Made by a program: the position numbers and the translations under genes. A DNA stretch of 64,000 nt from Mugil cephalus (taxonomy: Eukaryota > Chordata > Actinopteri > Mugiliformes > Mugilidae), in NCBI RefSeq assembly GCF_022458985.1, contig NC_061770.1, positions 39,289,599 through 39,353,598 on the forward strand. The letters run 5' to 3'. Of the stretch, positions 26,434-64,000 are shown one piece after another (position 1 is the stretch's first letter; each line of letters opens with the position of its first letter). The notes beneath the pieces are model-generated. The model searched no databases, was not told the origin of the DNA, and saw only the letters and a program-made list of their open reading frames with translations.

Positions 26434-26567
26434 GAAAGAGAAAGGACAGCTTCGCACGGGTGATCTGTGACGTGACAGCAGGAGTGTATAAAGTGTTTTT
26501 TGTGTGTTATCTTTTCTCATTTTCGTTCACCGCCTGCAGGCCTACTGTTCTTCCTCTCACCCAGAAG
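26434..26567 (+). promoter_or_regulatory. Promoter and non-coding exon 1 of member A
   Basis: GAAAGAGAAAGG at 26,434-26,445 resembles an ISRE/IRF site, TGACGTGA follows near 26,468, and a TATA box (TATAAA) lies at 26,487-26,492. The presumed non-coding exon ends ACCCAGAAG at 26,567 before GTAAGA. The whole block is repeated at 27,628-27,760. Confidence 0.55.
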
Positions 26568-26687
26568 GTAAGATCATTAACACTGAACAGAGAACGACGT
26601 ACTAATATTATATTGTAAACTCTCTGGAATTTCTCATTAACGTAATGCTTTTTTTCAAGTTCACAGAGTGTTTTAGCTACAGCTGTT

Positions 26688-26768
26688 ATGGCAGGACTGG
26701 GTAGGTCCAGAACCTCCAAGGGCCTCTTCCTCATCAGGCCTGCCCTAAAGCTTTTATTCTTGTATTGA
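26688..26768 (+). pseudogene. Member A of secreted helical family, truncated in the signal-peptide exon
   Basis: The exon starts MAGLGRSRTSKGLFLI exactly like member B, but homology stops after about 26,735 and the frame closes ten codons later (PALKLLFLY, stop). None of the helical exons follow. The promoter looks intact, so a short transcript is possible but no mature domain remains. Confidence 0.75.
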
Positions 26769-27627
26769 GATAGTTGTCATACGACAGCACCACTGATTGA
26801 GTGAGTGTGAATTCTGCCATTTGGTGGCACTATTGATATGATAATATATGTCAGATTGGCACCATGTTCATGCTAACGAAAACTCCTTTAATGAAGAAAA
26901 TAAAGCCTAGCCAGGGCTATGGTCTGGATGACTTTTTGTAACCAACAAGTAGCCTGAATAAAACCAGCGGTGTGCCTCGCTGCTGGGGACTGGCATTATT
27001 GGCCCTTTCTACAGAAGGGCCACGACCTCTGCCACAAGGGAACTGCCCTGTTGTGCATGAGAGTGGGATCACTTATAGAAAAGTGCGGTGGTCTGGTTTT
27101 GAACTTTATCGAATCGAGAGGGGCAAACATTTCATAAAGACCAGGAAGACTGAAGAACAGCATTCACTGCACAGATTAAACAAGAAGAAAAAAAATAAAG
27201 TATGATGAATCCTTGAAGAGGCTCCTGATCGAAAGTATAAAACATAATTTATCAAACTGTGGCAACAGCGTGATGCATGAGTCTGCATGGACTCCAGTGT
27301 CACAGCATCACTTGTCACAAATTTTCATTGATCATTTCATTAACAATTTGTTCAGATCCTTTTGAGGAAATTGATATTCCTGCACCTTTCCTCCTACTAA
27401 CCTGAATACATTTTGGTAAACAAAAAAAAAAACTACAAAACTTACGACACTGTCCGAAGTCCCAACTGTTTATGGTGCCCTCCTTATTTGGTTTATTTGA
27501 ATTGTCTAACATATTGTTGCTGTCCCAGACCTTGACAGTTCTTGATGGAGCTACTGATAAGGTGTTCTCTGTTGTACACCTACAAGTGTTATCATATCAT
27601 AAAAGTATAATAAACTTCCATGCCAAT

Positions 27628-27760
27628 GAAAGTGAAAGGACAGGTTCCTACAGGTGATCTGTGACGTGACAACAAGAGCGTATAAAACATTTTTCATGTG
27701 TTATCTTTTCTCATTTCGTTCACCACCTGCACGGTTGCTGTCCTTTCTCTCACCCAAAAG
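27628..27760 (+). promoter_or_regulatory. Promoter and non-coding exon 1 of member B
   Basis: GAAAGTGAAAGG lies at 27,628-27,639 (GAAANNGAAA, the IRF core), TGACGTGA near 27,661, and the TATA box TATAAAA at 27,681-27,687. The expected transcription start is near 27,710. The non-coding exon ends at 27,760 before GTAAGA. Confidence 0.6.
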
Positions 27761-27898
27761 GTAAGATCATTAACACTGAGTAATATGAGCGTTGTGCTAA
27801 ACATTATTAAATATTATATTGTAAACTCTGTGGAATTCCTCATTAACCATAATACTTTTAATGTGTCAAGTTCACAGAGTGTTTTAGCTACAATTGTG

Positions 27899-28656
27899 AT
27901 GGCAGGACTGGGTAGGTCCAGAACCTCCAAAGGCCTCCTTCTCATCTTGTCTCTGCTGTGCCTGGTTCATGTCGCCAGTTCACAGATAGACAACGACAGA
28001 CTTGTAAATGAACTTACTTATCCTTTTGCTTGTGATGTAAAATACTGAGATTTTATGTTATTTTATGCAGATATAATTACATCCACTACAGCCGTCATGG
28101 GCTAATTAACAGTCTTAGTGTCCTTCATTTACAGTTTCAGGATGTTTCTGAGACACTTAAGAAAATGCTCATGAAAAAAGTTCAGGAAGCAACAGAAGAC
28201 CTAAACAAAATGAAGGTGGGTCAGTCAGTGGGCCACATTCATTTCATATTCAGTTATCGCACATGTTGGTTTAGAGTGTACATGTGAAAAATATACATCA
28301 GATTATTCTTTGTGATAAATCCACTGCAAATGAAGGAGAAGTGCAACTCATCCTATGATGTGTGATGAAATGTTTTTACTTATCTCTATCAGGTAGCATA
28401 CGAGAAGAGACTGGCAGATGCATCAAGACAACACAATGAAAGAAAAAAGCAGCTTGACGCTATTGTGGAAACAGTGAAGGAAGCATCAGATGAATTTCCA
28501 CCACTGTTAAAACTGCCGAACATCCTGAAGCATGTCGTTGAGATTATGAAAGCTGACACAGACAGAACGAATCATGCCATGGCCGCAAATCTGAGAGAGA
28601 AGGAAATGCGACTACAAAACCTAAAATTAAAAGCGCAACACCCAGTGCAATTTTAA
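27899..28656 (+). CDS. Member B: secreted helix-rich protein, 147 aa, function unknown
   Basis: Coding exons are 27899-28003, 28141-28215 and 28393-28656, all joined in phase 0 with GT-AG borders; a non-coding exon lies upstream. Residues 1-29 form a signal peptide with an unusually long basic N-region (MAGLGRSRTSK) and core GLLLILSLLCLVHV, probably cut after ASS. The rest is charged and helical: exon 3 gives DVSETLKKMLMKKVQEATED, and the last exon holds SDEFPPLLKLPNI and ends in an amphipathic, coiled-coil-like tail. The mature part has no cysteine. I do not recognise the family. A secreted size near 120 residues, phase 0 introns and an IRF-type promoter recall helical cytokines, but no cytokine signature is visible. 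Confidence 0.75.
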
Positions 28657-28659
28657 CAG

Positions 28660-30245: not shown

Positions 30246-30252
30246 TGAATTA

Positions 30253-30266
30253 CTATATATATATAT

Positions 30267-30321
<55 letters not shown>

Positions 30322-30324
30322 TAT

Positions 30325-30395
<71 letters not shown>

Positions 30396-30408
30396 CACAT
30401 ACACACAG

Positions 30409-30440
<32 letters not shown>
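30253..30440. repeat. TA microsatellite followed by a CA microsatellite
   Basis: About 140 bases of alternating TA with scattered C and G are followed at about 30,411-30,440 by a CA run. Long open frames on both strands across it are artefacts of the repeat. Confidence 0.95.
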
Positions 30441-30444
<4 letters not shown>

Positions 30445-32313
30445 CCAAAAATAATTTGTTACTTGTATAAGATTGATATCTAACTTTTGTTGATGTTAAT
30501 GATTTGTTGTTATACCTCTTCATTCCTCTAAAACAGATACATTAATTGCGTTTTTTAAAATAAAGGTAAAAATAAAAAGTTCTGGCATGATTCATTTTTG
30601 TGCCATATGATGTGAATATGATGCTACATGAACACCACTTGCGAACAGCACAACGAATCTAGTGTTCAGGATACCTCAGTCAAAAACTTTGTTTAGAAAC
30701 TTGATTGTGGGACATTGGGAGATAATTAACATACTTCTTCCATATTCTGAAGGGGGGAAAAAGTAAACTTTTTCAAATTATGAAAAACAGTGTTATCTAA
30801 ATAGATTATAACTCTGAACAATTATAAAACAAAGATGGAAGAACATATGAACATATGAAAGAAAAAGGAAGCCTTTTGTCTTTTGTTGTATTTAGTGACC
30901 TCTAGCGGCCAAGTGCGAGAACATCACTAATTTCATCAACTGCATTAACTGACACACGGCATGCAAAATTAAGTTATCTGTTAGGTTTCTGGTGAAGTTG
31001 AACCCACTGCACAGAGGGAAGAACCAGAAAGAAAATTGACTTTAATAAAAACTCTAAACTAGAGTTGCAGCCAGAAGGGAAGGCATGGTATCAAAAAACA
31101 AAAACACAACTACAATAATCAAGACAAGGAGGGAGGAAGTAACACCAAGAAAAGACAGGGTCACAGAAAATATTCAAAACCATGAACGTGAGGCAAAAAA
31201 AAAAGTATGTATTGTATTTATTTGAGTAGGATACTTTTTTACTGATGTGCAAAAGGTGAATGAAATTTACCCTATTTAAGAATCTACTTATGTATATGCA
31301 CAAAAAAATGTCTATATGCAAGAAAGAATGTACCAGTAAGTTGTTACTTATATATTTCAACTTGAATAACGAGACTAGAATATAAGAGCTGCAGCCTTTT
31401 TTTGTAAATGTAGAAGTTTTATGTAGAACTGCAGACTGAACTTTATGTGCTTCATTGAATTATGTACACTGTGAATGTAATAATGAATTATTCTTCAGAT
31501 CTTTATAATTTCATGCAAACTAGTGCAAACATATGATGTTGGGTCATTAGTAACGTATGTTCTTTTTGAGATGTATCTTCTTTCAGTGGCATTGTATAAG
31601 TTAAAGTTGTTAAAATAAAGGTGTGATATGATTTATGTGTTTGCTTATTTTACTTTTACACCAAAAACTCTAAATATCTAAAACATGTAGAGAAATTTAA
31701 AGTTTTTCTATTTTGATATGCTACGATTGGACAATTGTATGTCCAATTGAAATAGAGGAAACTTAATCATACAGAACATTTTTTTTTTGAGAGCAAGAAG
31801 GTTCTGCTTTCTGTGTGGAGTTTTCCAGCTTCCTCCCACCATCCGAAGACATATTCGTTAGGTTCATTGGTGATTCTAAATTGGCCGTAATTGTGAGTGT
31901 GAATGTTTGTCTGCCTCCTCGTGAAAATGAAAGAATGAATGACTAAATTATGTGCATGCACTGTTTGTATATGATTGACAGTAACACGGCAAAACTATCA
32001 AAACTCCACATAGTTCAAACCATAATAGCTGTCAGTATTCCCAGAAAACAACGCAATTTATCAAACTACCAAAAGCCTGACAGTGACATTCTGTCACTTT
32101 GAATTGAACCTTGCAGAGGCTGATGTTTTTTGCTTAGAGGCTGCCCATTTTATTGTATACAATAAGTATACCTTAACGAGACTGAAACTAGAAAGTTATT
32201 TTCTGTTATTTTCTATTTTCTACATGTTCTCTGCTGAGCTGGAATATTGTCACAACGTTTATATCTTTTGTGTTTTATGTTGGCATGTTCTGATAAAGAG
32301 GAACTATTTCTGT
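30445..32313. other. Intergenic with a relic 3' flank of a lost family member
   Basis: About 31,425-31,640 resembles 40,215-40,400, the 3' flank of member F (both contain CTTCAGATCTTTATAATTT and an AAAATAAAG signal). It may mark a vanished copy. A SINE-like piece lies at 31,795-31,925. No coding exon is seen. Confidence 0.45.
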
Positions 32314-32463
32314 GAAATGAAAGTCAGAGAGTGGCAGTGCACTCACGTGATCCCTAACCTAACATGACCAGTGTGACACATACATGAGTATATAAACGTT
32401 GGTCGTATCGTCTTTTCATTCAACGACAACAACGCAGCAACCCTCCTACCGTCCATCCACCAG
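32314..32463 (+). promoter_or_regulatory. Promoter and non-coding exon 1 of member C
   Basis: GAAATGAAAG lies at 32,314-32,323, a weaker IRF-like site with one-base spacing. CACGTGATCC follows at about 32,345, and the TATA box TATAAA is at 32,391-32,396. The non-coding exon ends ACCAG at 32,463 before GTAAGA. Confidence 0.5.
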
Positions 32464-32565
32464 GTAAGAACACTAACACACAATTAAGCACAAATTTAAT
32501 TATTACAGTGTTACTTCTAATTTTCTTTCCGTTTCAATTTACCCATAATAAAGAATATAGCTGTG

Positions 32566-34342
32566 ATGGCAGCAGCAGTCTTATCCACCACCAGAGGACT
32601 GGAGAGAGTCAGAACCTCCAAAAACCTCCTCCTCATCTTCTGTCTGCTGAGTCTGGTTTACGTTGCTAGTCCACAGTTCACCAAGGAGAAAATTGTACGT
32701 GATTTTTTTGTACTTTTACGCATTTATTTGTCCATGTGCAAAATCAAAATTGCTGCAGCTCTCCACAGCTAACCGCTTTCATACTTGTGTGATCTTTCTG
32801 GGAACTTTCAGGAAGTGATCAAGAAAGCCTTCAGGGCGTCAATAGAAAGTCTAAGGAGAGAGAAGGTGGGTCCCCCCAATAATCCATTCTTTTCTTTTAG
32901 AGTCGGTTGTGTGTCAAAGGAAAAAAAACAAAAAACATAAGGCATTTGATTTGTGCTGAAAGTTTTGTTTTCCTCATTCAGGCAGAGAACAAACTTCGAA
33001 CCGCAACTCTGTCAGAATTACTTGATTTGGCAGATTCATGCGACACCGAGGATCAGCTGGTAAATCAATTCTTGTTTTGTAGATGCAATTTAATTGTCAT
33101 GCACCCGTCTACGGCTGCCTAGAGCACAACATGAAAGTGACTCAACTTCCCCAAGTCCCAAGTAGCCACAAGTAGATTTTGGTTGGGAAATGACAATGGA
33201 AGTAACAAATGTATCCACAAACCAAGAATCTCCTAGTGAGGTAACCAAGACTTCAGGGTGGACCAAGGCCAAAATAACAACCAAACCATCTGTGAAATAA
33301 GGAAACTAAGCTCCAAAACAAAACAACAAAGGTTTACTTTCCTAACTAAGAGAAACAGGAGAAAACGAGCAAGACAAAATGGGAGTCCACCCCTAAAGGA
33401 CCTGACACAATCTCATCAAGTTCTGATAATTCAAAGCTGTGGCCGGTTGGGAGATGAGGAGGATGAGGGAAGCCAATCACAGGTTTGGTCTGGCCCTTTC
33501 TCCCAATCACCTCTCAGTTATGGCACAGTTCTATCTGCATGTGAGATGGGAGACAAAAAAAAAAAACACAGGGCACACATATAGCACACACACCAGACTT
33601 CTAATATGACCACAGCCATTACATTAATCCACTGCACTTGACGCAAACTGATGTAATGACATGCTCTTTCTTGGAAATTTCAGAAAATATTCAGAGAAAA
33701 GCTTCAGAGAGCTGCAGAACACGCAAGAATGCAGAAGGTGGGTTACTCAACTGTTCACATTTTGTTTGAGAGAGTCCGCTATGCACGTGGACAGTAGATA
33801 AAATAGTCAGTGAGAACTGCAAATCAGTCACATGTGGGAATAGCAGCTTGTACAGTTTATATCGTGGTCTGGGTTTTTCTAAGCCCAGATTCCGTGAGCG
33901 AGGCCCATTGGCTCCACTAAGCCAGATATAGTTGATTCAAACCTATTCTGCAGATTTGGACATTTGGCCGCCTTATCTAAGTCCTCAGAAGTGTGTATAT
34001 GCAAAGAAATGAACCGACAGGGGCTGCGTCTATGCTCCTAGAATCTTGGGCTGCAATACACATCCAATGTCTCCAATGCACAGCAAGTTTTAGGCTGAAG
34101 TTTTTGCCATGTGTTATGCCTGATGTGATGCAACGTAGCGGACTTAATGTGTCCTTTTCCTACATCAGGCACAGCAAAAGAACGGAATCACAACTGCCTC
34201 GTTCCCATATACTGAAAACTTAAAGCGGTTTGATTCCCTGGTGAACATGATGAAGACCATGCTTGGCAACTCTCCACCAATGAAAGAAGCCGTGGACATC
34301 TCGAGGCGTTTACTGGAGAAAAGCAAGATTTTTATAGATAGG
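32566..34342 (+). CDS. Member C: family protein with duplicated exon pair and a late frameshift, about 162 aa
   Basis: Coding exons are 32566-32694, 32812-32865, 32982-33059, 33684-33737 and 34169-34342, all phase 0. The signal peptide is MAAAVLSTTRGLERVRTSKN plus a hydrophobic core ending YVASPQ. The third and fourth coding exons look like a tandem copy of the usual short exon plus the start of the last exon: KIFREKLQRAAEHARMQK at 33,684 parallels the short exon at 32,812. The last exon has NSPPMKEAVDISRRLLEK, after which a run of five A (about 34,319-34,323) puts the frame off and a TAG follows at 34,340. With one A fewer the frame would continue to a TGA at 34,374 in family style. It is either a sequencing error or an early decay step. 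AATAAA lies at 34,556-34,561. Confidence 0.62.
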
Positions 34343-34559
34343 AGGATGAAAGTCGCTCATGCAGAAAAACTGTGAGAAATACTGAACTTACCAGTTTGTG
34401 CCAATTGTAGTTTCTGTGCTTGTTATGAAATGACAGTGAAAGTCATGATTTCTTCAACCAATTTTTTTTTTTTTTGTTCGCCTGTTTCTGAATGACGCAA
34501 GATGAAGCTCTAGCTAACCAGGACCATAAACATGGTATACAAGCAACTTCTTGGAAATA

Positions 34560-35700: not shown

Positions 35701-35711
35701 TATCTCTAAAG

Positions 35712-35846
35712 GAAAGTGAAAGCAAAGCTCACACACGTGATCAGTAACATGAGCTTTGTGTCAACGTATAAAACGTTTGTCATGTGTCATCTTTGCACAT
35801 TCACATTCACCGCCTGCCAGCAGCTGTCCTTCCAGTCACCCAGCAG
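35712..35846 (+). promoter_or_regulatory. Promoter and non-coding exon 1 of member D
   Basis: GAAAGTGAAAGC at 35,712-35,723 matches GAAANNGAAA. CACGTGATCAGTAACATGAG follows at about 35,735, and the TATA box TATAAAA is at 35,767-35,773. GTCATGTGTCATC near the presumed start is shared by other members. The exon ends ACCCAGCAG at 35,846. Confidence 0.6.
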
Positions 35847-35990
35847 GTAAGATCACCAACACTGAACGTTAAGATGACTGTAGACTACTGAACACATTTA
35901 AACATCACATTTTACTTCAACAATCCTATATAAAGAAGTGCTTATTTAGGTTTGCTTTGTGTTTTCTGTCAGGTTGTAGTTACAGCTGTG

Positions 35991-36731
35991 ATGATGGCAG
36001 CAGCAGTCTTTCCCACCACCAGAGGACTGACAAGAGCAACAACCTCCAAAAAAGGACTCGTCCTCGTCCTCTCTCTGCTGAGTCTGGTTCACGTCGCAAG
36101 TTCACTGGTGGACCAGCACACACTGGTACTTTGTTTCTTGATCTACATTTGGGATCACTACAATTACACAGACTGACTCTTTTAATTTAGCAAGTAATCA
36201 CAGTGAAACATACAGATAAGGTTGTTCCTGATATTTTATCTTGTTACATTAGTAATCATAACACCAGGATCCACATGAAATTAACTGTTGTCTCTATTTC
36301 TAAAGCGAGAAATGAAAGTCAACCTTCAGGCACTGGAGGAAGAAGTAGCAAGAAAGAAGGTGAGTCAGTTGGTTTAACTTGGGGTGTGTTGTATAAAGGT
36401 AGTGCACAAGTATTTATAAGAGGAGAACACTGACTTGGTTTTGCATTTCCTCCAGGTCAACCACGCCTTAGACAAATCCTTTGTGTCAGAGATGGTGGAT
36501 GACGTCTGTAGCATAATGGACGCTTTGAACAAAGCAGTCACCAACCTTATGCCTGATTTTACACCAATGCCGCAGTTTATTGAGGAGGCTAAGGGCGTCT
36601 TGCAGGAAATGAACACTTTCTTCGCTAAAATGTACGAGGAAGAAGCTGCAGAAATCAGGGACAATGAAGAGAAACTGAGAGGACTGAAGGAGAGGATAAG
36701 GTCTCTGGAGGAGCGTCGTAGTGAACTGTAA
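35991..36731 (+). CDS. Member D: secreted helix-rich protein, 154 aa
   Basis: Coding exons are 35991-36125, 36306-36359 and 36456-36731, all phase 0. Two adjacent ATGs (35,991 and 35,994) could start it; the second aligns with its sisters. The signal peptide has the long N-region (AAAVFPTTRGLTRATTSKKG) and core LVLVLSLLSLVHVASS. The short exon is REMKVNLQALEEEVARKK. The last exon encodes a helix with one cysteine (DDVCSIMDALNK), a proline break (MPDFTPMPQF) and a strongly charged C-terminal coiled coil (EIRDNEEKLRGLKERIRSLE). AATAAA lies at 36,844-36,849. It is the most diverged of the intact copies at the C-terminus. Confidence 0.78.
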
Positions 36732-37985: not shown

Positions 37986-38016
<31 letters not shown>

Positions 38017-38241: not shown

Positions 38242-38398
38242 GGAAGCGAAAGGACTGCCCACACATGTGACCTACACATGTGCAATACCACACTGCTGTG
38301 GCATGAGTGACCACTCTGTACAAAACTTCTGTCATGTGTCGTCTTGTCTCATTTTCGTTCGCCGCCTGCCAGCAACTCTTCTTCCTTTCACCCAGCAG
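38242..38398 (+). promoter_or_regulatory. Promoter and non-coding exon 1 of member E
   Basis: GGAAGCGAAAGG lies at 38,242-38,253, an IRF-like variant. The TATA position reads GTACAAAAC (about 38,317), a weakened box. GTCATGTGTCGTC follows. The exon ends ACCCAGCAG at 38,398. A near copy of this promoter sits at 54,013 (member K). Confidence 0.5.
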
Positions 38399-38513
38399 GT
38401 AAGATAACTAACAAGAAGATAGTTACGCTGAATGCATGTCAATAGTAACAATTATATATATATATATATATATATGTTTTGAATTTTCTGTCTGTGTTGT
38501 AGTTTCAGTCCTG

Positions 38514-39275
38514 ATGGCAGCATCAGTGTCACCCAGCAGCAGAGGACTGGCTACAGTCAGAACCTCCAAAGGTCTCTTCCTCATCCTCTCTCTGCTCTGC
38601 CTGGTTTGCATGGGCAGTTCACAAAGTTATAAAAAGGACAAAGTGGTACATCGTTTCTTTCTTCGTCCCGTTTTAAGATTTGCGCAAATCGGCCATCATG
38701 GGCTCATTAACTGCTGGAGTCTCATTCATGTTCAGTTGTTGATGTAATGACAGGACATCCGTCATACTCACATGATCTTTCTGGACAATTTCAGAAAATT
38801 CTCGAGAAGCAAATGCAACATGCAACAGAAATACTAAATAAACTGAAGGTGGGTCAGTCAGCAATACATATTTCATATGTCTGTATTTGCAAAAGTATGA
38901 CTTTTAACATCAGATTTGAGATGAATATGCTGTGGAACTCTAGGATACGTATACAACATGATGTAACAATGAATTTACTGCGTGCTAAAAGCTTTGTTTT
39001 TCCTCCTTCAGGCAGCTCTAGAGCAGAGAGTTGCAGCTGACTCAAAATCTTATGACGATGAGAGAACGCAGCTCGCTTTGTTGGAGGACCTGCTGGAGGA
39101 AGTGTCTGACGAGATTCCGCCAGTGTTGAAATTGTTGGATGTCACCAAAAAGTTTTTTAAGAAAAGCAAGGCATTCGAAGACCAGGAGACGGAGAGGCTC
39201 GCTGCACGAATCGAGAAATATGAAAAACAAATGGAAGAAGCGAGGAACTTAATGCAGTTCTTAGAGAACATGTAG
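38514..39275 (+). CDS. Member E: secreted helix-rich protein, 149 aa
   Basis: Coding exons are 38514-38645, 38795-38848 and 39012-39275, all phase 0. The signal exon reads MAASVSPSSRGLATVRTSKG followed by a hydrophobic core and SSQSYKKDKV. The short exon is KILEKQMQHATEILNKLK. The last exon contains LLEEVSDEIPPVLKLLDV and a tail EKYEKQMEEARNLMQFLENM that fits an amphipathic coiled coil. The mature part has no cysteine. AATAAA lies at 39,425-39,430. A TA microsatellite fills intron 1 (38,454-38,475). Fragment K at 54,013 is a decayed copy of this gene. Confidence 0.78.
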
Positions 39276-39469: not shown

Positions 39470-40818
39470 TATGGTGATCAGATGGTGTGAGATGATGGTG
39501 TGGTTATAAAACCAGGATTTATAGCAGTACAGAGAGACTCCTGGTTGTCACGTATTCTCACTGGGCTACGTTTCAGACACTCTCATGCTTGTTGCTGTTA
39601 TCTGGGACCTCACATGGCAAATATGGAAATGAAAATAGGTTCATCACGGATTTGGATGCATTCAAATTCACATGCAAATGAACAGAAAGTAGGAAACTAA
39701 CAGAGGGAAGTCACCGGGAGCCGAGACTCCGTTTACAGTCTCATCATTGTTTGTGTTGACATTCATACACTTTGAATTTGACCATTTGAATAAATACTTC
39801 CATTAAGGCAACACCTGTCCTCATCATTCACATCCAGGAATGAAGCAGCTGTGAGAGAATTTTTTTTTCTAATAAATAAATAGTGAGGTGCACGATATAA
39901 GAGCTGCAGCCATGAACTTAAGAACTGCAGACTATCAGGCTCCAACACAAAGGTTTGGACACACAGATTCAGGCGAACACACAGTCTGTTCGTTCAATAC
40001 AAAACCAGAAACCGGATAGGCAGGTCTGGCAAAAAGAGGGAGGGAAACACAGCTTATATACCCGAGGTGGAGGGAGACAACAAGACACAGGTGGGACGCA
40101 TAAGGGCAGGCAGTTCAGTCACAAGGGCGGGAAATTGGACAGAAAGATGGAGATGAGACTGGACTTGAGAATAAAACAGGAAGTGACAGGAACACAAGTA
40201 CAATGTGGGTCCTGACACTGAGCTTTATTTGCATTATGAATAATGCACACTGTGAATATAAGGAATCATTCTTCAGATCTTTATAATTTATCACAAATAT
40301 TGCAAATGTATGCAATTGGGTCATTAGGAGCTTCCTTTTTATTTCATGACTGTTAGACAGTTCAGTTGTTAAAAATAAAGTTACGATATGATTTATAAGT
40401 GTTTGTGCTCACACACACTTTATTTGTGTTTGAATGCATTCCAAATAAACACATAAACATTCACATATTGTTTTATTTCTTTATTAAGACAACAGGACAA
40501 TATGGTCTATTTAAACTACATTACCCAGCAGCAGTCCCTGCCAAGCTGTTTCCAAGCTATTATTCACAGCAGCATCACCACACACACAAGTCACAGACAA
40601 TGACTGATGAAACGGAAAAAGCTAGAAGTGACAGAATGGCCCGTATCTTTTTCTTTACCAGTACAGGATTATTTGTGCAGTAACATTGGACCTGCTCCTC
40701 CTATAATAGTTTAATTTGCAGTTACTTATTGGGAAAAGAAGAAAAATATTTTCGATGCAAATAAAATCAATAATTTCAAATTCCAAATCAGACATCAGAT
40801 GGAAATTATTATTTCCAA
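39470..40818. other. Intergenic between convergent members E and F
   Basis: The stretch at 39,640-39,730 (GCATTCAAATTCACATGCAA) recurs at 46,780-46,890 and 55,650-55,740, so it belongs to the duplicated family units. 40,215-40,480 is the 3' flank of F, seen again in part at 31,425 and 46,430. No gene is seen. Confidence 0.5.
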
Positions 40819-41574
40819 TTATAGTTCAGTGCGATGCTTCTCTTTTTCTCTCAATTTGATTAATTTCTCCAACTCTCTCAGCTCTTCTTCCTCGTAGAGT
40901 ATTTGTGCAGACAAGCTCTCCATCTTGCTGTCTGTGTAATTCTTGGCGCCCTCCAAGAAGCGCTCTATAGCCTTCAGCAGGCCTGACATCGGCGGAAACT
41001 CCTCAATAAATTCCTCCACTAGTTCTACAACAGGATCAAACAGCTCCATGGCGTCGTCAAATACTTTGGAGATACGAGCGGCTTTGTTCTCGTGCTCTGC
41101 CTGATGGAAGAGAGAAACACTTTTAGCAAACATTACATTTACTCTGACGTTATTTTGTACTTAGTGCAGATCCTGATGTTTTTAAATGAAATAATCCACA
41201 CACACAACAGACTCTCAGGCAACATGCAAACAAACTGAATATGAAATGAAGAATATTTGTATACTGGCTTGGCCTACCTTCATTCTCTTTAGCGCCTCTG
41301 CTTTTTTCAGATAGCGTTCCTTTAGTATTTCCTAAAATTTCCCAGACAGATCATGTAAGTGTGATAACTGCAGTAGCATTGCATCTAAACTGTAAATTAA
41401 GGACATTTCAAGTAGTAATTGCTTTGTATCAAAAAAGAAGATTAATAACTAATAACGTACCAGTTCATCGTTACTTGTGTGTGAAGTTGCGACGTAAACC
41501 AGACAGAGCAGAGAGGTGATGAGGAGGAGGCGTTTGGAGGTTCCTCTGCTGCTGGGTGGCACTGATGCTGCCAT
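40819..41574 (-). CDS. Member F: secreted helix-rich protein, 149 aa
   Basis: On the - strand the coding exons are 41574-41461, 41331-41278 and 41100-40819, all phase 0. The signal exon is shorter than in its sisters: MAASVPPSSRGTSKRLLLIT, lacking the LATVR block, then SLLCLVYVATSH and SNDEL. The short exon is EILKERYLKKAEALKRMK. The last exon reads VVELVEEFIEEFPPMSGL, then GAKNYTDSKMESLSAQ, and ends with a Lys/Glu-rich coiled coil. No cysteine remains after cleavage. It is the first - strand member and is convergent with E. Confidence 0.77.
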
Positions 41575-41737
41575 CACAACCGTAACTACAAATACCACCA
41601 ACTGTAAACTTGATAAATTAAAAAAAAAAAAAAAAAACTAAAATTAAAAACCAACATGGTCAATGAAGAATTCAGCAGATACTTTGATTTATGAAGTGGT
41701 GATGTATTGTTTAGATTTTCAGACTGAGTGAACTTAC

Positions 41738-41874
41738 CTGCTGGATGAATGGAAGGAGCTGCTGCTGCTGCTGCTCAGGTGGTGAATGAGACAAATGTTT
41801 TGAACTCTCCTGCTCCTGCAAATGACGTGTAGCAGGTGTCTGTTCACATTCACTTTGACAGAAGTGAAAGTGAA
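41738..41874 (-). promoter_or_regulatory. Promoter and non-coding exon 1 of member F
   Basis: On the - strand the non-coding exon ends CCAGCAG at 41,738 before GTAAG. The upstream flank carries GAAGTGAAAGTGAA (41,861-41,874, + orientation), an IRF-type repeat. No good TATA box is seen (TTCAAAAC at about 41,797). A CAG/CTG run of five units lies inside the exon. Confidence 0.45.
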
Positions 41875-48286: not shown

Positions 48287-49024
48287 TTACAGTTCAGCGT
48301 GGTGGCGCTCCAGAAATTTAATTAACATGTACATGCTTTGCAGCTTGTTTTCATTGTCATGTAGTTGTTTAGTGTAGTTCATCATTTTTTGTTTTGTGTA
48401 AGTTGTGGTTCTGTCCACAAAATCCTGCATCACCTCCTTCAGTGCAGACCCATCAGACACTTCACCCACCAGCTTCAAAATAGAATTAAGATGATCTATG
48501 ACTTCATTAATTTCAACTGAAACAGTTTCAGCTCTTCTCTCGTGTGACGTCTGATGGAGGAAAAAAAAAAACTTTTAACACACATTAAATTACAAATAAT
48601 TGTTGTTTACCTCCTGCACACACAACACACTCTCCACTTGTGAAGAAACTGAATATGAAGTGAAAGAAGATTAAACACTCACCTTATTTCTAACTAGTTC
48701 CACCAATGCTTTCTGATAGTGCTCCTTGAGTGATTCCAGAAATTTCCAAGAGAAAAAATCTGAGTGTGGTTGCTCTACCATTGCATTCTGTAAATGAAGA
48801 AAGTTCAAGTTAATTAGCCCGCCATTGATTTAATTTCAAGTACACAGGTAAACGTGCGACTGCAAAACGAGACTAAGTAACAAAGAATGTACCAGTTTGT
48901 CCATGTTACTTGTCTGTGAAGTTGTAACATAAACCAGACTGAGCAGAGAGAAGATGAGGAAGAGGCCTTTGGAGGTTCTGACTGTAGTCAGTCCTCTGCT
49001 GCTGGGTGACACTGATGCTGCCAT
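48287..49024 (-). CDS. Member G: secreted helix-rich protein, 166 aa
   Basis: On the - strand the coding exons are 49024-48893, 48787-48683 and 48550-48287, all phase 0. The signal exon is MAASVSPSSRGLTTVRTSKG, core LFLIFSLLSLVYVTTSQ, then TSNMDKL. Its second coding exon is 105 bases, not 54, adding residues ahead of the shared part FLESLKEHYQKALVELVRNK. The last exon carries LKLVGEVSDGSALKEVMQDF, then TYTKQKMMNYTKQLHDNENK, and ends LERHHAEL. The mature part has no cysteine. It belongs with H, J, L and M to the SNMDKL/SDESELK subgroup. Confidence 0.8.
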
Positions 49025-49128
49025 CACAACTAAAACACTCTGTGAAGTTGACACAATAGAAACCACTGTCAGAAAAAGGCAAGAGAAACTTATATACAAT
49101 AGTTGAAGTGAAGTAAGATTTAATTTAC

Positions 49129-49259
49129 CTGCTGGGTGAATGGAAGGAGAGCTGCTGCCGAGCAGGTGGAGAATGAAGAAATGACACACGACAAATGTTT
49201 TATACGCTCCTGTACATGTCACAGATGACGTGTTTGACCTGTTCTTTCCCTTTCATTTC
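49129..49259 (-). promoter_or_regulatory. Promoter and non-coding exon 1 of member G
   Basis: On the - strand GAAATGAAAGGGAAAGAA occupies 49,259-49,242, a double IRF-type site. A TATA box (GCGTATAAAACA) lies at about 49,207-49,196, then GTCGTGTGTCATTTC. The non-coding exon ends ACCCAGCAG at 49,129. Confidence 0.6.
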
Positions 49260-49342: not shown

Positions 49343-50088
49343 TCACGTGACAGTGTTTTTTTCACTGAAATGTAGTTGTTTAGTGTAGTTCAGGTTCGAG
49401 GTTTTCTCCACGAAATGCTTTATCGTCTCCTTCAGTTCAGACTCATCAGACACTTCCCCCACCAGCTCCAAAACATAATCAAGCTGATCTTTGACTTCAT
49501 CCAATACATCTGAAACAGTTTCAACTCTTCTCTCTTGTGCCGCCTGATGGAGGACAAAAAGACTGTTTACTCACATTAAATCACAAATAATTGTCGTTTA
49601 GTGCCTGCACACACAACACACTCTCCACTTGTGAAGAGACTGAATATGAAGTGAAGGAATAAAAAAGAAATAATGGTTAGGAAATGTTTTACATATTCTA
49701 GATGTCACTTTGACACAACTCTAATTAGTGTACTTGTGTTTTCATTTGTTTGTCTGAGGGAGTGAGCACATCCTGTCCTGCATTGTTTGGATACCATGGA
49801 GGACATGATGGTATCTACCTGGCTGTGATGAGCCTCTATATTTTAACCGCGATTTCTATTAATAAAGTTCCAGTTAATTAGCCTGTGATGACTTGCAATT
49901 GATGTAAATGCATGTACACAGATGAATGTGTGAGTGAAAAACAAGATAAGCAACAAAGACTGTACCAGTTTGTCCACGTTACTCGTCTGTGAAGTTGCAA
50001 CATGAAGCAGACTGAGCAGAGAAAAGATGAGGAAGAGGCCTTTAAAGGTTCTGACTGTAGTCATCAGGAGCTTCATAGAAGCCACCAC
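49343..50088 (-). CDS. Member H: rearranged copy, exon 3 lost, possible 107 aa protein
   Basis: On the - strand the signal exon is 50088-49966 and the last exon 49543-49343; the short exon is absent, and a join of the two keeps phase 0. The first residues (MVASMKLLMT) come from unrelated flank; homology begins at TVRTFKGLFLIFSLLSLLHV. The last exon is open (LDYVLELVGEVSDESELKE) but has an internal deletion (EKTSNLNYTKQLH) and a new end. The family promoter and non-coding exon are missing upstream. Either it is a pseudogene with open frames or a reduced gene using another promoter. Confidence 0.5.
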
Positions 50089-52950: not shown

Positions 52951-52954
52951 CCAT

Positions 52955-53089
52955 GAAAGTGAAAGAACAGACGTCATACGTGTCATTGGTGATGTACAAT
53001 CTGACAGCTGAAGCACTAAATATTTGTCATGTGTCATCTCTTCATTCTCCACTTGTTCAGCAGCAGCTCTCCTTCCATTCATCCAGAAG
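52955..53089 (+). promoter_or_regulatory. Promoter and non-coding exon 1 of member J
   Basis: GAAAGTGAAAGAAC lies at 52,955-52,968 followed by GACGTCA (CRE-like) at about 52,970. The TATA position is degenerate (CACTAAATATTTG). GTCATGTGTCATC near 53,027 is the conserved start-site block. The exon ends ATCCAGAAG at 53,089. Confidence 0.55.
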
Positions 53090-53177
53090 GTAAATTAAAT
53101 CTTTCTTCCCTTGAAACATTTTCTGCTGAGATTTTCTCATGATGGTTTTTATTGTGTCACAGAGTGTTTTAGTTGTG

Positions 53178-53753
53178 ATGGCAGCATCAGTGTCACCCAG
53201 CAGCAGAGGACTGGCTACAGTCAGAACCTCCAAAGGCCTCGTCATCACCTTCTCTCTGCTCAGTCTGGTTCATGTTACAGCTTCACGGACAAGTAACATG
53301 GACAAACTAGTACATTCTTCGTTTCTGGAATCACTCAAGGAGCACTATCAGGGAGCCGAACTAGAACTACTTAGAAACAAGGTGTGTATTTAATCTTCCT
53401 TCACTTCATATTCAGTTTCTTCACAAGTGGAGAGTGTGTTGTGTGCAGGCACTAAACAACAACTATTTGTGATTTAATGTGTGGAAAAAGTTTTTTTCTT
53501 TCATCAGACGTCTCATGAGAGAAGAGCTGAAACGGTTTCAGATGTATTCAGTGAAGCCATAGATCAGCTTGATTATGTTTTGGAGCTGGTGGGGGAAGTG
53601 TCCGATGAGTCTGAACTGAAGATGATGGAGCATTTCTTGGAGAAAATGGTGATTTACACAGACCAGAAGATGAAGAGCTACGCCAAACAACTACATAACA
53701 ATGAAGACATACTGCAAAGCATTTACTCAGTAATAAAATTGTTAGGGCGATAA
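53178..53753 (+). CDS. Member J: secreted helix-rich protein with fused exons, 149 aa
   Basis: Coding exons are 53178-53381 and 53508-53753, phase 0. After the signal exon (MAASVSPSSRGLATVRTSKG, then TSNMDKL) the sequence passes through the former donor (GTACATTC) straight into the short exon (FLESLKEHYQGAELELLRNK). Intron 2 and the first part of exon 3 are deleted, yet the frame stays open, adding VHSS. The last exon has LDYVLELVGEVSDESELK, then IYTDQKMKSYAKQLHNNEDI, ending IKLLGR. The mature part has no cysteine. It is the only intact member with two coding exons. Confidence 0.75.
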
Positions 53754-54012
53754 GACACAAAACATGTCAGTGCATGCTCTTTGATATATATACTTCTCTT
53801 GGCACTTCTTCTTTTACTGTTATTTAACATTTTATTGCAGTGACAAAAAAGATTGATTTGCTAAGTTTAGTTTCACTCCTGACTAGTGGTTCATTTTCTG
53901 TCAATCACTTCTGTAATTAAATCATTGTACATGAGTTTAACCTGTTGTTTATATACAAATGAATATATCCAACTTGCTGATCAGAAAATACACATGATTA
54001 AAAATTGAAAAT

Positions 54013-54500
54013 GGAAGCAAAAGGACAGCTCACACATATGATCTACACACATAGGATACCACAGTCCTGTGGCATGAGTGACCACAGGAACATTTATCAT
54101 GTGTCATTATCTGTGTCCATAGGATAGTTATGCTGAATATATATATACTATGCTATATACATATATATGTATGTGTGTGTTTCTGTGTTTGTGTTTGAAC
54201 TCTTGTATTTTGAATGTGTCTGGAGTCTCCTTCATGTACAGAACAGCTGTCATACTCACATGATCTTTCTGGACAATTTCAGAAAATTCTCAAGAAACAA
54301 ATTCAACAAGCAACAGAAGCATTAAATAAACTGAAGGCGGGTCAGTCAGTAACACATATTTCATGTATTTTCTAAGAAACGCAAGACATACCAAGACTAG
54401 GAGGGGAGAGGCTCACTGCACAAACAGAGAAATATGAAAATCAAATGGAAGTAATGAGGAACTTAATGCAGTTTTTAGAGACCTTCATTTCTGAACTTTA
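54013..54500 (+). pseudogene. Member K: decayed copy of member E
   Basis: The promoter block (GGAAGCAAAAGG at 54,013) and start-site sequence match E. The signal exon is gone. The short exon (54,283-54,336, KILKKQIQQATEALNKLK) is intact but followed by GCGGGT instead of GTGGGT, and the last exon survives only as its tail near 54,430-54,480 (EKYENQMEVMRNLMQF). The E-like 3' flank continues to about 54,677 and resumes at 55,528 after an insertion. Confidence 0.8.
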
Positions 54501-54676
54501 TTAAACATGTTCCAATCACTACAAGGGTCTCAATAACATTTTAGTTTGTGTTACGATTTTCAATTTGATTTGATTGCTCTTGCTTTTAAAGACAAAATAT
54601 CAATCCAGTCGTAGACTCTGACTTATATGTGTGCGGTGATCAGATGGTGTCAGATGATCATGTGGTTATAAAACCA

Positions 54677-55528: not shown

Positions 55529-55529
55529 G

Positions 55530-58152: not shown

Positions 58153-58897
58153 TTACAGTTTAGTGTGATCAAGCTCTAAGAATGTTATTGTTGATTTAAT
58201 AATTTTCAGTGTTTTTTCATTTAGATCTAGTTGTTGAGCGTAGTTGAACATTTTTTTGTCTATGTAATCCCAGGTTTTCTCCACGAAATCCTTTATCCTC
58301 TCCTTCAGTTCAGACTCATCAGACACTTCCCCCACCAGCTCCAAAACATAATCAAGCTGATCTTTGACTTCATCAAATACAACTGAAACAGTTTCAACTC
58401 TTGTCTTGTGTGCCGTCTGATGGAGGACAAAAAGAAATCAACACACAAATTACAAATGATAATTGTTGTTTAGTGCCTGCACACACAACACACTCTCCAC
58501 TTGTGAAGAACGTGAATATGAAGTGAAGGAAGATTAAATACACACCTTGTTTCTAACTAGTTCTAGCTCTGCTTTCTGATAGTGGTCCTTAAGTGACAGC
58601 AGAAATGTCCAAGAAGAATCACCTGAGCGTCGTTGCTTTATCATTGCAATCTGTAAATGAATAAAGTTCAAGTTAATCAGCCCGCAATGACTTCCAGTTG
58701 ATGTAAATGCACTAGCACAGATAAATGTGCGACACCAAAACAAGACTAATCAACAAAGAATGTACCAGTTTGTCCATGTTACTTGTCTGTGAAGTTGCAA
58801 CATGAAGCAGACAGAGCAGAGAGAAGATGAGGAAGAGGCCTTTGGAGGTTCTGACTGTAGCCAGTCCTCTGCTGCTGGGTGACACTGATGCTGCCAT
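58153..58897 (-). CDS. Member L: secreted helix-rich protein, 166 aa
   Basis: On the - strand the coding exons are 58897-58766, 58650-58546 and 58416-58153, all phase 0, sizes identical to member G. The signal exon is MAASVSPSSRGLATVRTSKG with core LFLIFSLLCLLHVATSQ and TSNMDKL. The 105-base exon gives IAMIKQRRSGDSSWTFLLSL then KDHYQKAELELVRNK. The last exon holds LDYVLELVGEVSDESELKER, IDKKMFNYAQQLDLNEKTLK, and ends LELDHTKL. The mature part has no cysteine. The signal exon is far closer to G and M than the last exon is. Confidence 0.8.
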
Positions 58898-59001
58898 CAC
58901 AACTAAAACACTCTGAGAAGTTGACACAATAGAAACCACTGTCAGAAAAACACAAGAGAAACTTATATACAACAGTCGAAGTGAAGTAAGATTTAATTTA
59001 C

Positions 59002-59139
59002 CTGCTGGATGAATTGAAGGAGAGCTGCTGCTGAGCAGGTGGAGAATGAAGAAATGACACACGACAAATGCTCCAGTTGTCAGATTGTACAGTGTCAACA
59101 ACGACGTGTGTGACTTCACTGTTCTTTCACTTTCATTTC
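59002..59139 (-). promoter_or_regulatory. Promoter and non-coding exon 1 of member L
   Basis: On the - strand GAAATGAAAGTGAAAGAA occupies 59,139-59,122. There is no TATA box where G has one (GGAGCATTTGTCG instead of GTATAAAAC). The non-coding exon ends ATCCAGCAG at 59,002. Confidence 0.55.
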
Positions 59140-59159
59140 TGAAATGATTTCACTTTACG

Positions 59160-60590: not shown

Positions 60591-60598
60591 TAGAACTG

Positions 60599-61362
60599 TT
60601 ACAGTTCCTCATCTCTAGACTTCTCCAAGCATATTTTGTGACTTTCTTGCAGTCTTTTTTCAGTGTCATGAAGTCGTAGAGTGTAGGTCTCCATCTTTTG
60701 GTTTGTGTAAGTCATGGTTTTCCTCAAGAAATGCTTTATCCTCTCCTTCAATTTAGACTCATCAGACACTTTCCTCACCAGCTCCAAAACAAAATCAAGC
60801 TGATCTTTGACGTCATCAAGTACATCTGAAACAGTTTCAACTCTTCTCTCGTGTGCCGCCTGATGGAGGACAAAAAGACTTTTTACTCACATTAAATTAC
60901 AAATAAAATAATTGTTGTTTACCTCCTGTACACACAACACACTCTCCATTTGTGAAGAAACTGAATATGAAGTGAAGGAAGATTAAATACACACCTTATT
61001 TCTAACTAGTTCTTCTACTGCTCCCTGAGAGTGCTTCTTCATTAAATCCAGAAATTTCCAAGAACAAACCTTTGAGTGTTTCACATGTGCTGCATTCTGT
61101 AAATGGAGAAATGAACAAGAAGAAATAAATGAAGAAAGTTAATTAGCCCATAATGACTTCCAGTTGATGTAAATGCATGTACACAGATAAACGTGCGACT
61201 GCAAAACAAGATAAGCGACAAAGAATGTACCAGTTTGTCCATGTTACTCGTCTGTGAAGTTGTAACGTAAACCAGACTGAGCAGAGAGAAGATGAGGAAG
61301 AGGCCTTTAGAGGTTCTGACTGTAGCCAGTCCTCTACTGCTGGGTGACACTGATGCTGCCAT
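60599..61362 (-). CDS. Member M: secreted helix-rich protein, 164 aa
   Basis: On the - strand the coding exons are 61362-61231, 61096-60995 and 60859-60599, all phase 0. The signal exon is MAASVSPSSRGLATVRTSKG with core LFLIFSLLSLVYVTTSQ. The second exon is 102 bases (one codon fewer than in G and L) and contains a cysteine (KVCSWKFLDLMKKHSQGAVE). The last exon reads LDFVLELVRKVSDESKLKER, TYTNQKMETYTLRLHDTEKR, and ends KSRDEEL, with a second cysteine near the end (HKICLEK). With two cysteines in the mature protein it differs from its cysteine-free sisters. Confidence 0.78.
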
Positions 61363-61461
61363 CACAACTAAAACACTCTGGGAATTTGACACAATAAAAA
61401 CCACTGTGAGAATAACACAGACTTTTTATAACTGTTTGAAGTGAAGTAAGATTTAATTTAC

Positions 61462-61542
61462 CTGCTGGGTGAATCTAAGGAGAGCTGCTGATTGTACGTG
61501 TAAACAACGTGTGTGACTTCACTGTTCTTTCGCTTTCATTTC
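61462..61542 (-). promoter_or_regulatory. Shortened promoter and exon 1 of member M
   Basis: On the - strand GAAATGAAAGCGAAAGAA occupies 61,542-61,525. The segment between this site and the non-coding exon is shorter than in its sisters; the TATA and start-site block are missing. The exon ends ACCCAGCAG at 61,462. Expression may be altered. Confidence 0.45.
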
Positions 61543-61569
61543 TAAAATGATTTAACTTTATCGGAAACA

Positions 61570-61684
61570 TGACAACATGAAACACAACAGCGCCCTCAGT
61601 GCCCTGCCATGTCTCAACAACTTTTAGAGTGTATATGGGTGAGAGAGTGTGTCTGTGTAATGTGTGTATGTATGTGAATATATG

Positions 61685-61723
<39 letters not shown>

Positions 61724-61960
61724 GGGGGAGAAAGAGCGGGTTTGTTCTTGATGTTCTGTTTTGCATTAAAAGTGCTATATATGTGCATTAAAAAAAACAG
61801 GTTTTATGTAGCCAATTGATTATAACATCAATCCAACTTAAAGGTGCACTGCTGCCACCTACCGTACTGGAGTGTGAAACAGTAGATTGGCAGGTGGAAA
61901 AAAAACAGGTGATAAATGTATAAATAAAGTAAGTATGATAGAAATACTCAGAACAGGGGC
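61570..61960. other. Intergenic with a TG microsatellite
   Basis: A TG repeat spans about 61,687-61,721. The flanks match 59,160-59,360. No gene is seen. Confidence 0.5.
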
Positions 61961-61969
61961 ATCACTAGG

Positions 61970-62640
61970 CTTTAAGGACAGGGGAGGCTCGACCTGGGGG
62001 GGGGGAGTAGTATGATTTCTGTTTTGTTACTGTTTAATTTGAGGAAGTTTGAATGAAACCAGGATTTAATTTCGAGGGGGCAATCGTGAGCGAGGGAGGT
62101 GGGAGGGTGGAGTCCGGTTTGGTAGAGATATGGAGCTGGGTATCGTCTGCGTAGCAGTGGAAGGTAATACAATGTTTCCGGAAGATGTGACCAAGAGGGA
62201 GTAGGTAAATGATGAATAGTAGGGGCCCTAGGACTGAGCCCTGGGGCACACCTGAGATGAGTGGTTCAGATGTGAAGGAGCTTAGTTGAATGAACTGAGA
62301 GCGGCTGGAGAGGTAGGATTTGAACCAATGTAGGGAAGTGTGGGTAATGCCGATGGATAGGAGTCTGTCAAGGAGGATGGTGTGAGAGAGTGTCAAAGGC
62401 TGAGCTCAAGTCAAGAAGGATGAGAATGGATAGGAGACCGGAATCAGCTGCCAAGAGAAGGTCATCGGTGATTTTGAGGAATGCTATTAATTGTTAACTG
62501 TAATTGTTTGAAAAGATTATTGTGAGATAGATGTGAGTGGAGCTGGGAAGCAACAGTATCTTGGAGAGAAATAGAAGATTGGAGATTGGACGGAAATTGA
62601 ACTCCGGTAATGACATGCAGTTGGTGGAGTTTTTCCTTGC
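61970..62640 (-). mobile_element. LINE-2-like reverse-transcriptase fragment inside member N
   Basis: On the - strand it reads SKILLLPSSTHIYL in one frame, then [40 protein letters not shown] and [20 protein letters not shown]: the RT core of a LINE-2-like element, with broken frames. It joins the intron of member N within about ten bases of family sequence at about 62,640. It is the longest LINE-2-like piece in the window. Confidence 0.8.
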
Positions 62641-62698
62641 AGAAAACACACAAATAAACGTGTGACTGCAAAACAAGACTCAGCAACAAAGAATGTAC

Positions 62699-62806
62699 CA
62701 GTTTGTCCATGTTACTTGCGTGTGAAGTTGCAACATGAAGCAGACAGAGAAGAGAGAAGATGAGGAAGAGGCCTTTTGGAGGCCTTTGGAACTGAAACTG
62801 CAACAT
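62699..62806 (-). pseudogene. Member N: signal-peptide exon fragment
   Basis: On the - strand KGLFLIFSLLCLLHVATSHA and SNMDKL are family sequence followed by a normal GTACATTC donor, but the first ten residues (MLQFQFQRPP) are unrelated to MAASVSPSSRG, partly through a repeated AAGGCCTC. A LINE-2-like insertion follows in the intron and no later exons are present. Confidence 0.75.
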
Positions 62807-62819
62807 TAGGAGTAGGTAA

Positions 62820-63740
62820 ATATACAGAATGAATAAAAGGAGAGCTGCTGTACAGGTGATGAAAGAAGAGATGATAAATGTTTAATTCACTCCCTTTGTC
62901 AGATCGCTTATCACTATCACTACATCAGTTTGTGAGCTTTCTTTTCATTTTCATTTTTACACAAGTTGCTCCACTTTACAGACACAGCTTTACCATCAAA
63001 TAAATAAAGAAATGTGAGAAACAGTGTGAGAAAACTAAGCGAGAGGTGAGTTTTGTTTTGATTCTAGATGAAAGGAAGCTGTACTAGGAAGAGATATTGA
63101 AGGTGAGTATGGATTCACTGAGAAACTTGATAAATCAGAGTTAAACTGTTGACATTGAAGGTCCTTAGCTTCATCAGCAAGTGGAGTCTGTTGAGTTTTT
63201 TTTAAGATGGTGCCTGCATGTGGGAAAAGGAGAGGCAGCGGTTTAAAAGGGCAATTACTGACTGTCTTCGGCCCCCACGACACAGCTCCTTTGTTTTGGG
63301 GACATTTAACTGAGCTGGTTGTGTCCAGGTTTTCAGGTGAGCCACCAGGACCATGTCGTTGGCATATTTAAAAAGGTTCATTCCCTGACTCAGTACGTTT
63401 ACATGCACGGAAAAAAATCTTAATATCCCTTAATAGCTCTCTTGACCTCTTTATTAACCTCCTTTTTGTCCATCTCTGACCCAGGGAAGAAGATCAGTTT
63501 CTTCTTATTGATGGTAGTTTTTAGCTCCTTGTTGACCCAGGGTTTATTGTTAGGGAAGATGGTGACAGTCTTGGAGGGTATGATGTTTTCCTATAATCTT
63601 TAAGGACATATTCATTTGTTTCATGTGTATTATTGTATAAATACTATACTTTTAAGCCTATATCATCACAAAATACCCAGTTGGCAATGTTTTTCTACTT
63701 TTCTTTTTTGTCCCTGTCCTGCAAGTGTTTTTGTAGCTAG
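62820..63740. other. Intergenic with LINE fragments
   Basis: 62,935-63,130 repeats 56,105-56,290. On the - strand 63,150-63,425 carries MNLFKYANDMVLVAHLKTWT and LNVPKTKELCRGGRRQ, and 63,425-63,600 carries FPNNKPWVNKELKTTINKKK: two parts of one fish LINE polymerase. No host gene is seen. Confidence 0.55.
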
Positions 63741-63753
63741 TGTTCGGGGGGGA

Positions 63754-64000
63754 AGAGGAAAACTCACCCACGTGATATGTAACATGAGCTACCTGATCAC
63801 AGGAGCGTATAAAACCTCACGTCATGTGTCACCTTTTCCCACTTTCATTCCCTGCCTGCACAGCAGCTTTCCTTCCAATCACCCAGAAGGTAAGATCACG
63901 ATAAGACAGTCGTACTAAACTCATTTAAGTACTGCGTTACCACTTGTCTTTCTTAGTTTTTAAATTAAGTTTATTAATTTTCTGTCAGGTTGGAGGTTAA
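63754..64000 (+). promoter_or_regulatory. Promoter, non-coding exon 1 and start of member O (cut by window edge)
   Basis: CACGTGATATGTAACATGAG at about 63,769, TATA box TATAAA at 63,808-63,813, then GTCATGTGTCACC. The non-coding exon ends ACCCAGAAG at 63,889 before GTAAGA. TTTCTGTCAG at 63,979-63,988 looks like the next acceptor, as in member D. The coding part lies beyond 64,000, so the array continues to the right. Confidence 0.6.

Follow-up and report, generated by a model that had tools for sequence, protein, structure and literature searches.

An unnamed multigene family of small, probably secreted helical proteins with interferon-type promoter elements in the fish Mugil cephalus

The window described here, a stretch of 64,000 nucleotides of the fish Mugil cephalus (NCBI RefSeq assembly GCF_022458985.1, contig NC_061770.1, hereafter C1, positions 39,289,599 to 39,353,598), contains numerous copies of a gene for a small helical protein, and comparison of their sequences fits an unnamed, previously undescribed multigene family. 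The best reading of its members, held with a confidence that stops just short of even, is that they are interferon-regulated, secreted, coiled-coil effectors that would bind a fast-changing partner. Such an immune-effector role is suggested by a promoter element of the interferon regulatory factor (IRF)/interferon-stimulated response element (ISRE) type, by a codon-model ratio of nonsynonymous to synonymous change (omega) of 2.1 in the last exon of a 12-copy subfamily, and by the chemokine and TRIM genes in the neighbourhood.

The genes share a plan in which a non-coding exon 1 is followed by a signal-peptide exon 2, a short helical exon 3, and a longer helical exon 4, all in phase 0; this plan, already put forward in a preliminary description of the window, was recovered when the exons of nine window copies were assembled from the sequence via GT/AG sites. 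Exon 1 ends in a common TCACCCAGCAG-like donor, found at ten sites in the window, with a variant in copy C. Seven copies (B, D, E, F, G, I, and J; the letters are not those of the preliminary description) are open and encode 149–166 residues in three in-phase coding exons of lengths divisible by three, and copy M is also open, its exons 2 and 3 being fused through the near loss of intron 2. Copy C has open exons 2 and 3 and a shorter last exon (34169–34375), while copies A, H, and K and a remnant at 54283–54498 are broken or partial. The resulting total of about 14 copies, partial ones counted, is close to the approximately 15 first proposed, and the eight with open coding exons equal the number then taken as intact. 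The family as a whole, as first observed, is confirmed by the exon assembly and by matches of hidden Markov models (HMMs) and of proteins of other species; since the window copies built the exon HMMs, their E-values are the lowest by construction. The resemblance among members is not due to chance because copies G and M, on opposite strands, have 170 nucleotides in common at 94%, flanking copies unused in HMM building score down to E 6e-25, and proteins of other species down to E 7e-28.

Confining the family to positions 26434–64000, as initially done, proved too narrow: copies run about 36 kb past the window and two more clusters lie on the same contig. When three proteins were used as queries against the genome (635 Mb, 24 contigs), a search in which the best candidates alone are scored, every reported match fell on C1 (45/45, 21/21, and 28/28). 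Exon HMMs applied to the DNA of the three clusters identified at least 35 exon-2 copies with E < 1e-3, 19 in the present cluster (11 within the window), with a further 12 around 40.8 Mb and 4 around 35.7 Mb; this number, which does not include copy A, is a lower bound because copies sit near the ends of the examined stretches in the other two clusters. In 29 of the 35 there is a leader exon together with a last exon closed by a stop codon, and 20 of these 29 have all three coding exons, with no acceptor in range for one of the 20. Last exons resembling those of sea bass occur at C1 39383144, 39389260, and 40769947, and at C1:39378556 to 39383434 a sea-bass-like copy has exons 2 and 3 that are possibly about 4.3 kb apart, or belong to two separate partial copies.

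Unnamed relatives come from 13 other fish genera (Dicentrarchus, Symphorus, Odontesthes, Oreochromis, Channa, Nibea, Larimichthys, Pampus, Menidia, Zoarces, Sander, Caranx, and Acanthopagrus), three of which are placed in Percomorphaceae by taxonomy look-up, the remaining ones presumably being percomorphs. In total, three protein searches gave 30 distinct relatives, all with E <= 2e-11, a few of which match in the leader alone; the search relies on shared five-residue words and relatives in other fish could be missed. Their visible names are "uncharacterized", "hypothetical", or "unnamed", with one Zoarces protein automatically named (UniProt-type) Apolipophorin-III. One tilapia relative (P0009) has an nr name that also reads Mustela putorius, possibly an artefact of labelling or contamination. 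The protein of the Dicentrarchus labrax locus LOC127379198 shows homology along 93% of the query, shares the leader, and has a similar C-terminal end, with E 7e-28 against the window profile; no function is attached to it, and 22 of the 25 Mugil copies tested branch apart from the proteins of other species. In the tree of these 25 copies and 16 other proteins, which has a midpoint root and a bootstrap not fully settled, the 22 copies form one branch (97/94 support) and three group with other species. A scan of viral contigs with one protein, aimed at virus-captured relatives, gave 23 stretches fitting a pattern, none of which encodes a relative.

The statement that no known family fits these proteins holds for the window proteins compared with Pfam (five and three more), and the relatives are unnamed except for the automatic name mentioned above. 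Five window proteins gave no Pfam match over its cut-off; for 16 proteins (13 relatives and three from the window) compared with Pfam and NCBIfam, the first member was under all cut-offs shown, and the others, judged by E-value, gave weak, scattered matches to unrelated families (best E 3e-4 and 7e-4, among 25 of 76 and 25 of 49 families listed). One relative outside these 16 (P0027) carries a precomputed PF08429 assignment. No paper was recognised as describing the family in a literature search whose coverage left out most subscription journals. Membership of the helical cytokines or of the apolipoproteins was rejected at the sequence level, no match to either being present among the Pfam, NCBIfam, and PDB rows listed, and the five scanned proteins are not CC chemokines by PF00048, unlike the neighbouring exons. 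The PDB profile rows obtained with the window alignment and with the wider one (best 60 of 207) are coiled coils and helical proteins, the wider set including the cores of fusion proteins. The best of them (E 1e-6) is a chimeric protein mimicking a viral HR1 coiled coil, a match that is read as coiled-coil composition because the window alignment gives only E 0.05.

The IRF-type promoters of the preliminary description stand, with elements far above chance, as would be expected of interferon-stimulated genes. In 14 of the 35 copies the motif GAAAGYGAAAG is found at most 400 nucleotides before the start codon; when sites were placed at random 5000 times, the mean count was 0.39 and the highest 4. 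In total 16 such motifs occur in the three clusters, compared with 0.36 predicted by base composition. In the window all seven occurrences of GAAAGNGAAA are upstream of a family exon 1, and the looser GAAANNGAAA occurs 18 times, 11 of them scattered, and is found within 700 nucleotides upstream in 22 of the 35 copies. Most window copies have the IRF/ISRE-type site about 130 nucleotides upstream of the exon-1 splice donor. An alignment was made of the 25 promoters in which an exon-1 donor could be recognised, leaving aside the 10 other copies. Conservation in it is 8.1 tenths for the element, 7.6 for the exon-1 region, and 6.4 for the remaining columns upstream of that region, and a TATA box lies downstream of the element. 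Divergent subfamilies in each of the three clusters carry the ISRE-like site.

The family proteins are probably secreted, as judged by eye from the aligned leaders, which have a basic N-region, a hydrophobic core of about 14–16 residues, and a cleavage-like A/T-x-S end; the C-terminal ends are hydrophilic, many of them closing with a sequence such as AEL, and no glycosylphosphatidylinositol (GPI)-type tail was seen. The mature parts, roughly taken to comprise exons 3 and 4 and the final 8 residues encoded by exon 2, measure about 100–131 residues in the 20 complete copies and 113–131 in 19 of them; 115–135 were originally given. They are charged and mostly cysteine-free, as first described: cysteine is absent from 21 of 29, and the net charge is negative in 24 of 29, neutral in one, and positive in four. 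Cationic antimicrobial peptides, for which a net positive charge is required, were rejected on this ground.

Across 47 exon-4 sequences (28 from Mugil and 19 from relatives) the strongest hydrophobic period is 3.5, with 3.55 close behind; it is 3.45–3.5 in the first part and 3.55–3.6 in the second, and a P/D-rich hinge lies between the two. Conservation and hydrophobic core are uncorrelated in exon 4 (-0.03). The period near 3.5 together with the hinge suggests two long helices arranged as a hairpin or coiled-coil bundle. These features also bear on the improbable alternative that the proteins act in defence as small lipid binders of the exchangeable apolipoprotein or apolipophorin type, which would agree with their charged, mostly cysteine-free helices and with the automatic name of the Zoarces relative. 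Apolipophorin-III and the exchangeable apolipoproteins would resemble the present proteins in being small, secreted, helical, and cysteine-poor, and their amphipathic helices have a period of about 3.6 residues; in the present family the strongest exon-4 period is 3.5, even if 3.55 is near and the second half reaches 3.55–3.6, and no apolipoprotein is found among the Pfam matches listed or the PDB rows (best 60 of 207 in the wider alignment). The period leans more to a coiled coil, with lipid binding a less probable role.

The same features are relevant to a second alternative, an unlikely one, in which the proteins would be helical cytokine-like or decoy ligands for a host receptor, driven to evolve fast by a race with viral mimics or antagonists. 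Helical cytokines, fish type I interferons among them, have a leader, phase-0 introns, and a helical mature part, and the leader exon, phase-0 introns, and helical-looking mature part of the present genes, with the chemokine neighbourhood, fit this plan. Conserved disulphide cysteines are typical of helical cytokines and type I interferon, though not all have them, whereas here 21 of 29 mature parts lack cysteine, the first exon is non-coding, the hydrophobic pattern is close to a continuous heptad, and no cytokine model appears among the matches listed (25 of 76 families in the wider scan).

Among eight window copies, all 28 pairs show a higher identity in the leader than in the mature part (0.76 versus 0.34), as do 44 of 45 pairs of ten of the 19 aligned proteins of other species (0.64 versus 0.38). 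In a subfamily of 12 copies, picked by motif and open last exon, a codon model with the transition/transversion ratio kappa on a grid and one tree assumed gives an exon-4 omega of 2.1 (log-likelihood -1867.2 versus -1878.4 at omega 1) and an exon-2 omega of 1.2 that is not different from 1; the halves of exon 4, taken separately, give 2.1 and 1.8. Among 40 alignments simulated at omega 1 the values range from 0.72 to 1.27 and none reaches 2.1, so that the codon model signals positive selection on the mature exon. When all 25 copies are included, omega is 1.27 for exon 4 and 0.91 for exon 2. Exons with an average omega near 2 along their whole length are uncommon, and as a rule they indicate conflict with a moving target. 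Reproductive proteins, too, typically show an average above 1 among secreted paralogues, and the value would fit rapidly evolving reproductive or mucosal secretory proteins in which the interferon-type site is incidental; this explanation is a long shot in view of the immune neighbours and of the spread of the ISRE-like site over divergent subfamilies in all three clusters.

Most copies could instead be decaying duplicates under relaxed selection and without present function, as the broken copies A, H, and K, the remnant at 54.3 kb, and counting methods that put nonsynonymous (dN) near synonymous (dS) divergence would suggest. In a rough neutral simulation of random substitutions, which ignores shared ancestry, an exon-4 frame stays open with a probability of 0.27 at 0.125 changes per site, yet the 12 subfamily frames are open, these copies having been chosen as open (copy H is not). 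The many open frames compared with this rough expectation, the codon-model omega of 2.1 instead of 1, and the family members in 13 other fish genera make such decay very improbable.

Several results weigh against interferon-regulated effectors with a fast-changing partner. The exact GAAAGYGAAAG core is missing in 21 of the 35 copies, and 13 of the 35 have no GAAANNGAAA within 700 nucleotides; moreover, the copies are related, so that promoter counts and open-frame counts are not independent and kinship inflates the site count. For exon 4 of the 12-copy subfamily the Nei–Gojobori method gives a mean dN of 0.288 versus a dS of 0.252, with dN above dS in 46 of 66 pairs, and in six independent pairs the excess of dN over dS is 0.027 (95% -0.079 to 0.115), which is not significant. 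The dN is above the pooled non-coding divergence by 0.092 (95% 0.036 to 0.150), mainly due to intron 3 (mean 0.131); the mean divergence of the DNA upstream (0.250) and downstream (0.317) of the genes is close to dN, intron 3 alone being much lower, and gene conversion of the leader and introns may explain part of the contrast. The confidence in this reading is slightly reduced because the flanking DNA is, by simple counting, about as diverged as the mature exon.

The copies are distributed on both strands of the window. On the forward strand, broken copy A (26434–26762) has an ISRE-like site at 26434–26444, an exon 1 ending at 26567, and an exon-2 fragment at 26691–26762. Open copy B (27628–28656) has its ISRE-like site at 27628–27638, the end of exon 1 at 27760, and exons 2 to 4 at 27899–28003, 28135–28215, and 28393–28656. 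A long AT/AC microsatellite at 30254–30460 is a source of spurious open frames. In copy C (32410–34375) exon 1 ends at 32463 and is followed by exon 2 (32566–32694), exon 3 (32812–32865), and the short exon 4 already located, with an additional short open piece with splice-like ends at 32982–33059. Open copy D (35712–36731) has an ISRE-like site at 35712–35722, an exon 1 ending at 35846, and exons 2 to 4 at 35991–36125, 36306–36359, and 36456–36731, while in open copy E (38318–39275) a divergent ISRE-like site lies upstream, exon 1 ends at 38398, and exons 2 to 4 are at 38514–38645, 38795–38848, and 39012–39275. An interspersed repeat matched on many other contigs occupies 40025–40202.

On the reverse strand, open copy F (40819–41870), with no GAAANNGAAA site within 700 nucleotides, has an exon 1 ending at 41738 and exons 2 to 4 at 41574–41461, 41331–41278, and 41100–40819. 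Open copy G (48287–49254) has an ISRE-like site at 49254–49244, the end of exon 1 at 49129, and exons 2 to 4 at 49024–48893, 48787–48683, and 48550–48287; broken copy H (49343–50076) on the same strand retains a partial exon 2 and a shortened exon 4. Open copy M (52955–53753), on the forward strand, comprises an ISRE-like site (52955–52965), an exon 1 ending at 53089, the fused exons 2 and 3 (53178–53381), and exon 4 (53508–53753), and the forward-strand remnant noted above contains exon-3-like and exon-4-like pieces. The reverse strand also carries open copy I (58153–59134; ISRE-like site 59134–59124, exon 1 ending at 59002, exons 2 to 4 at 58897–58766, 58650–58546, and 58416–58153), open copy J (60599–61537; ISRE-like site 61537–61527, exon 1 ending at 61462, exons 2 to 4 at 61362–61231, 61096–60995, and 60859–60599), and copy K, an exon-2 piece alone (62705–62806). 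A reverse-transcriptase fragment (PF00078) at 62034–62402 on the reverse strand adjoins truncated copy K. Finally, an exon 1 at 63.8 kb (63825–63889, forward strand) is that of the next copy, the exon 2 of which begins just beyond the window edge, at window position 64008 (C1:39353606). Rfam gave no match in the window.

The chemokine cluster initially proposed as neighbour is real: five CC-chemokine second exons in tandem on the forward strand, at 2001, 9358, 16300, 21738, and 25105 (span 2001–25239), are all over the PF00048 cut-off. A genome search with the PF00048 family reported 12 matches, two of which are window exons and ten of which lie on other contigs. Directly downstream of the family cluster is a TRIM gene, possibly a finTRIM, with RING, TRIM coiled coil, PRY, and SPRY (C1:39393102-39396932, forward strand), so that the cluster is flanked by CC-chemokine exons on one side and by the TRIM gene on the other.

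Among known systems, tetherin (BST2) combines interferon-type control with a coiled-coil ectodomain and would be similar in control, here suggested by promoter sites, and in coiled-coil pattern; it differs in that the present proteins have, by eye, hydrophilic C-termini without a GPI-type tail and a cleavage-like end of the hydrophobic stretch. In the review PMC13030082, finTRIM and similar fish-specific interferon-induced expansions are described as large teleost-specific immune multigene families with many members induced by virus or interferon, and in this respect the present family would be alike. In contrast to finTRIM, its proteins are small, have a leader, and show no RING, B-box, or SPRY match in the five window proteins.

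The original proposal of inducible immune effectors is the best-supported reading of these sequences and is partly supported overall, family novelty, IRF-type promoters, and chemokine neighbours being in its favour. In the mechanism that would follow, an IRF or ISGF3 site upstream of the exon-1 donor would switch the genes on and the conserved leader would export the protein from the cell. The mature part, to judge from its period, would consist of two long helices with a heptad pattern and, between them, a short hinge that often contains proline; it would fold as a helical hairpin, and the hairpins may associate into a coiled-coil bundle. The surface of this bundle would bind a target that changes fast, most likely a surface protein of a pathogen, and as the target changes the genes would duplicate and the mature exon would be pushed to change, the excess of amino-acid change being the result of the codon model. 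A more specific and quite improbable version is that the proteins are an undescribed class of secreted interferon-induced coiled-coil restriction factors whose heptad helices, set free by infected tissue, dock on those of incoming pathogen proteins such as class I viral fusion machines and block them, with each copy tuned to a different opponent; the fusion-core PDB rows may reflect no more than coiled-coil composition.

Ordinary annotation conceals the family, as in sea bass, where a single "uncharacterized" locus with six predicted isoforms was seen, and concrete genes and promoters are now offered for testing. If the interferon-regulated effector reading is true, the antiviral gene set of percomorph fish, which include many farmed species, would gain an unnamed family that evolves fast and appears to be under interferon control.

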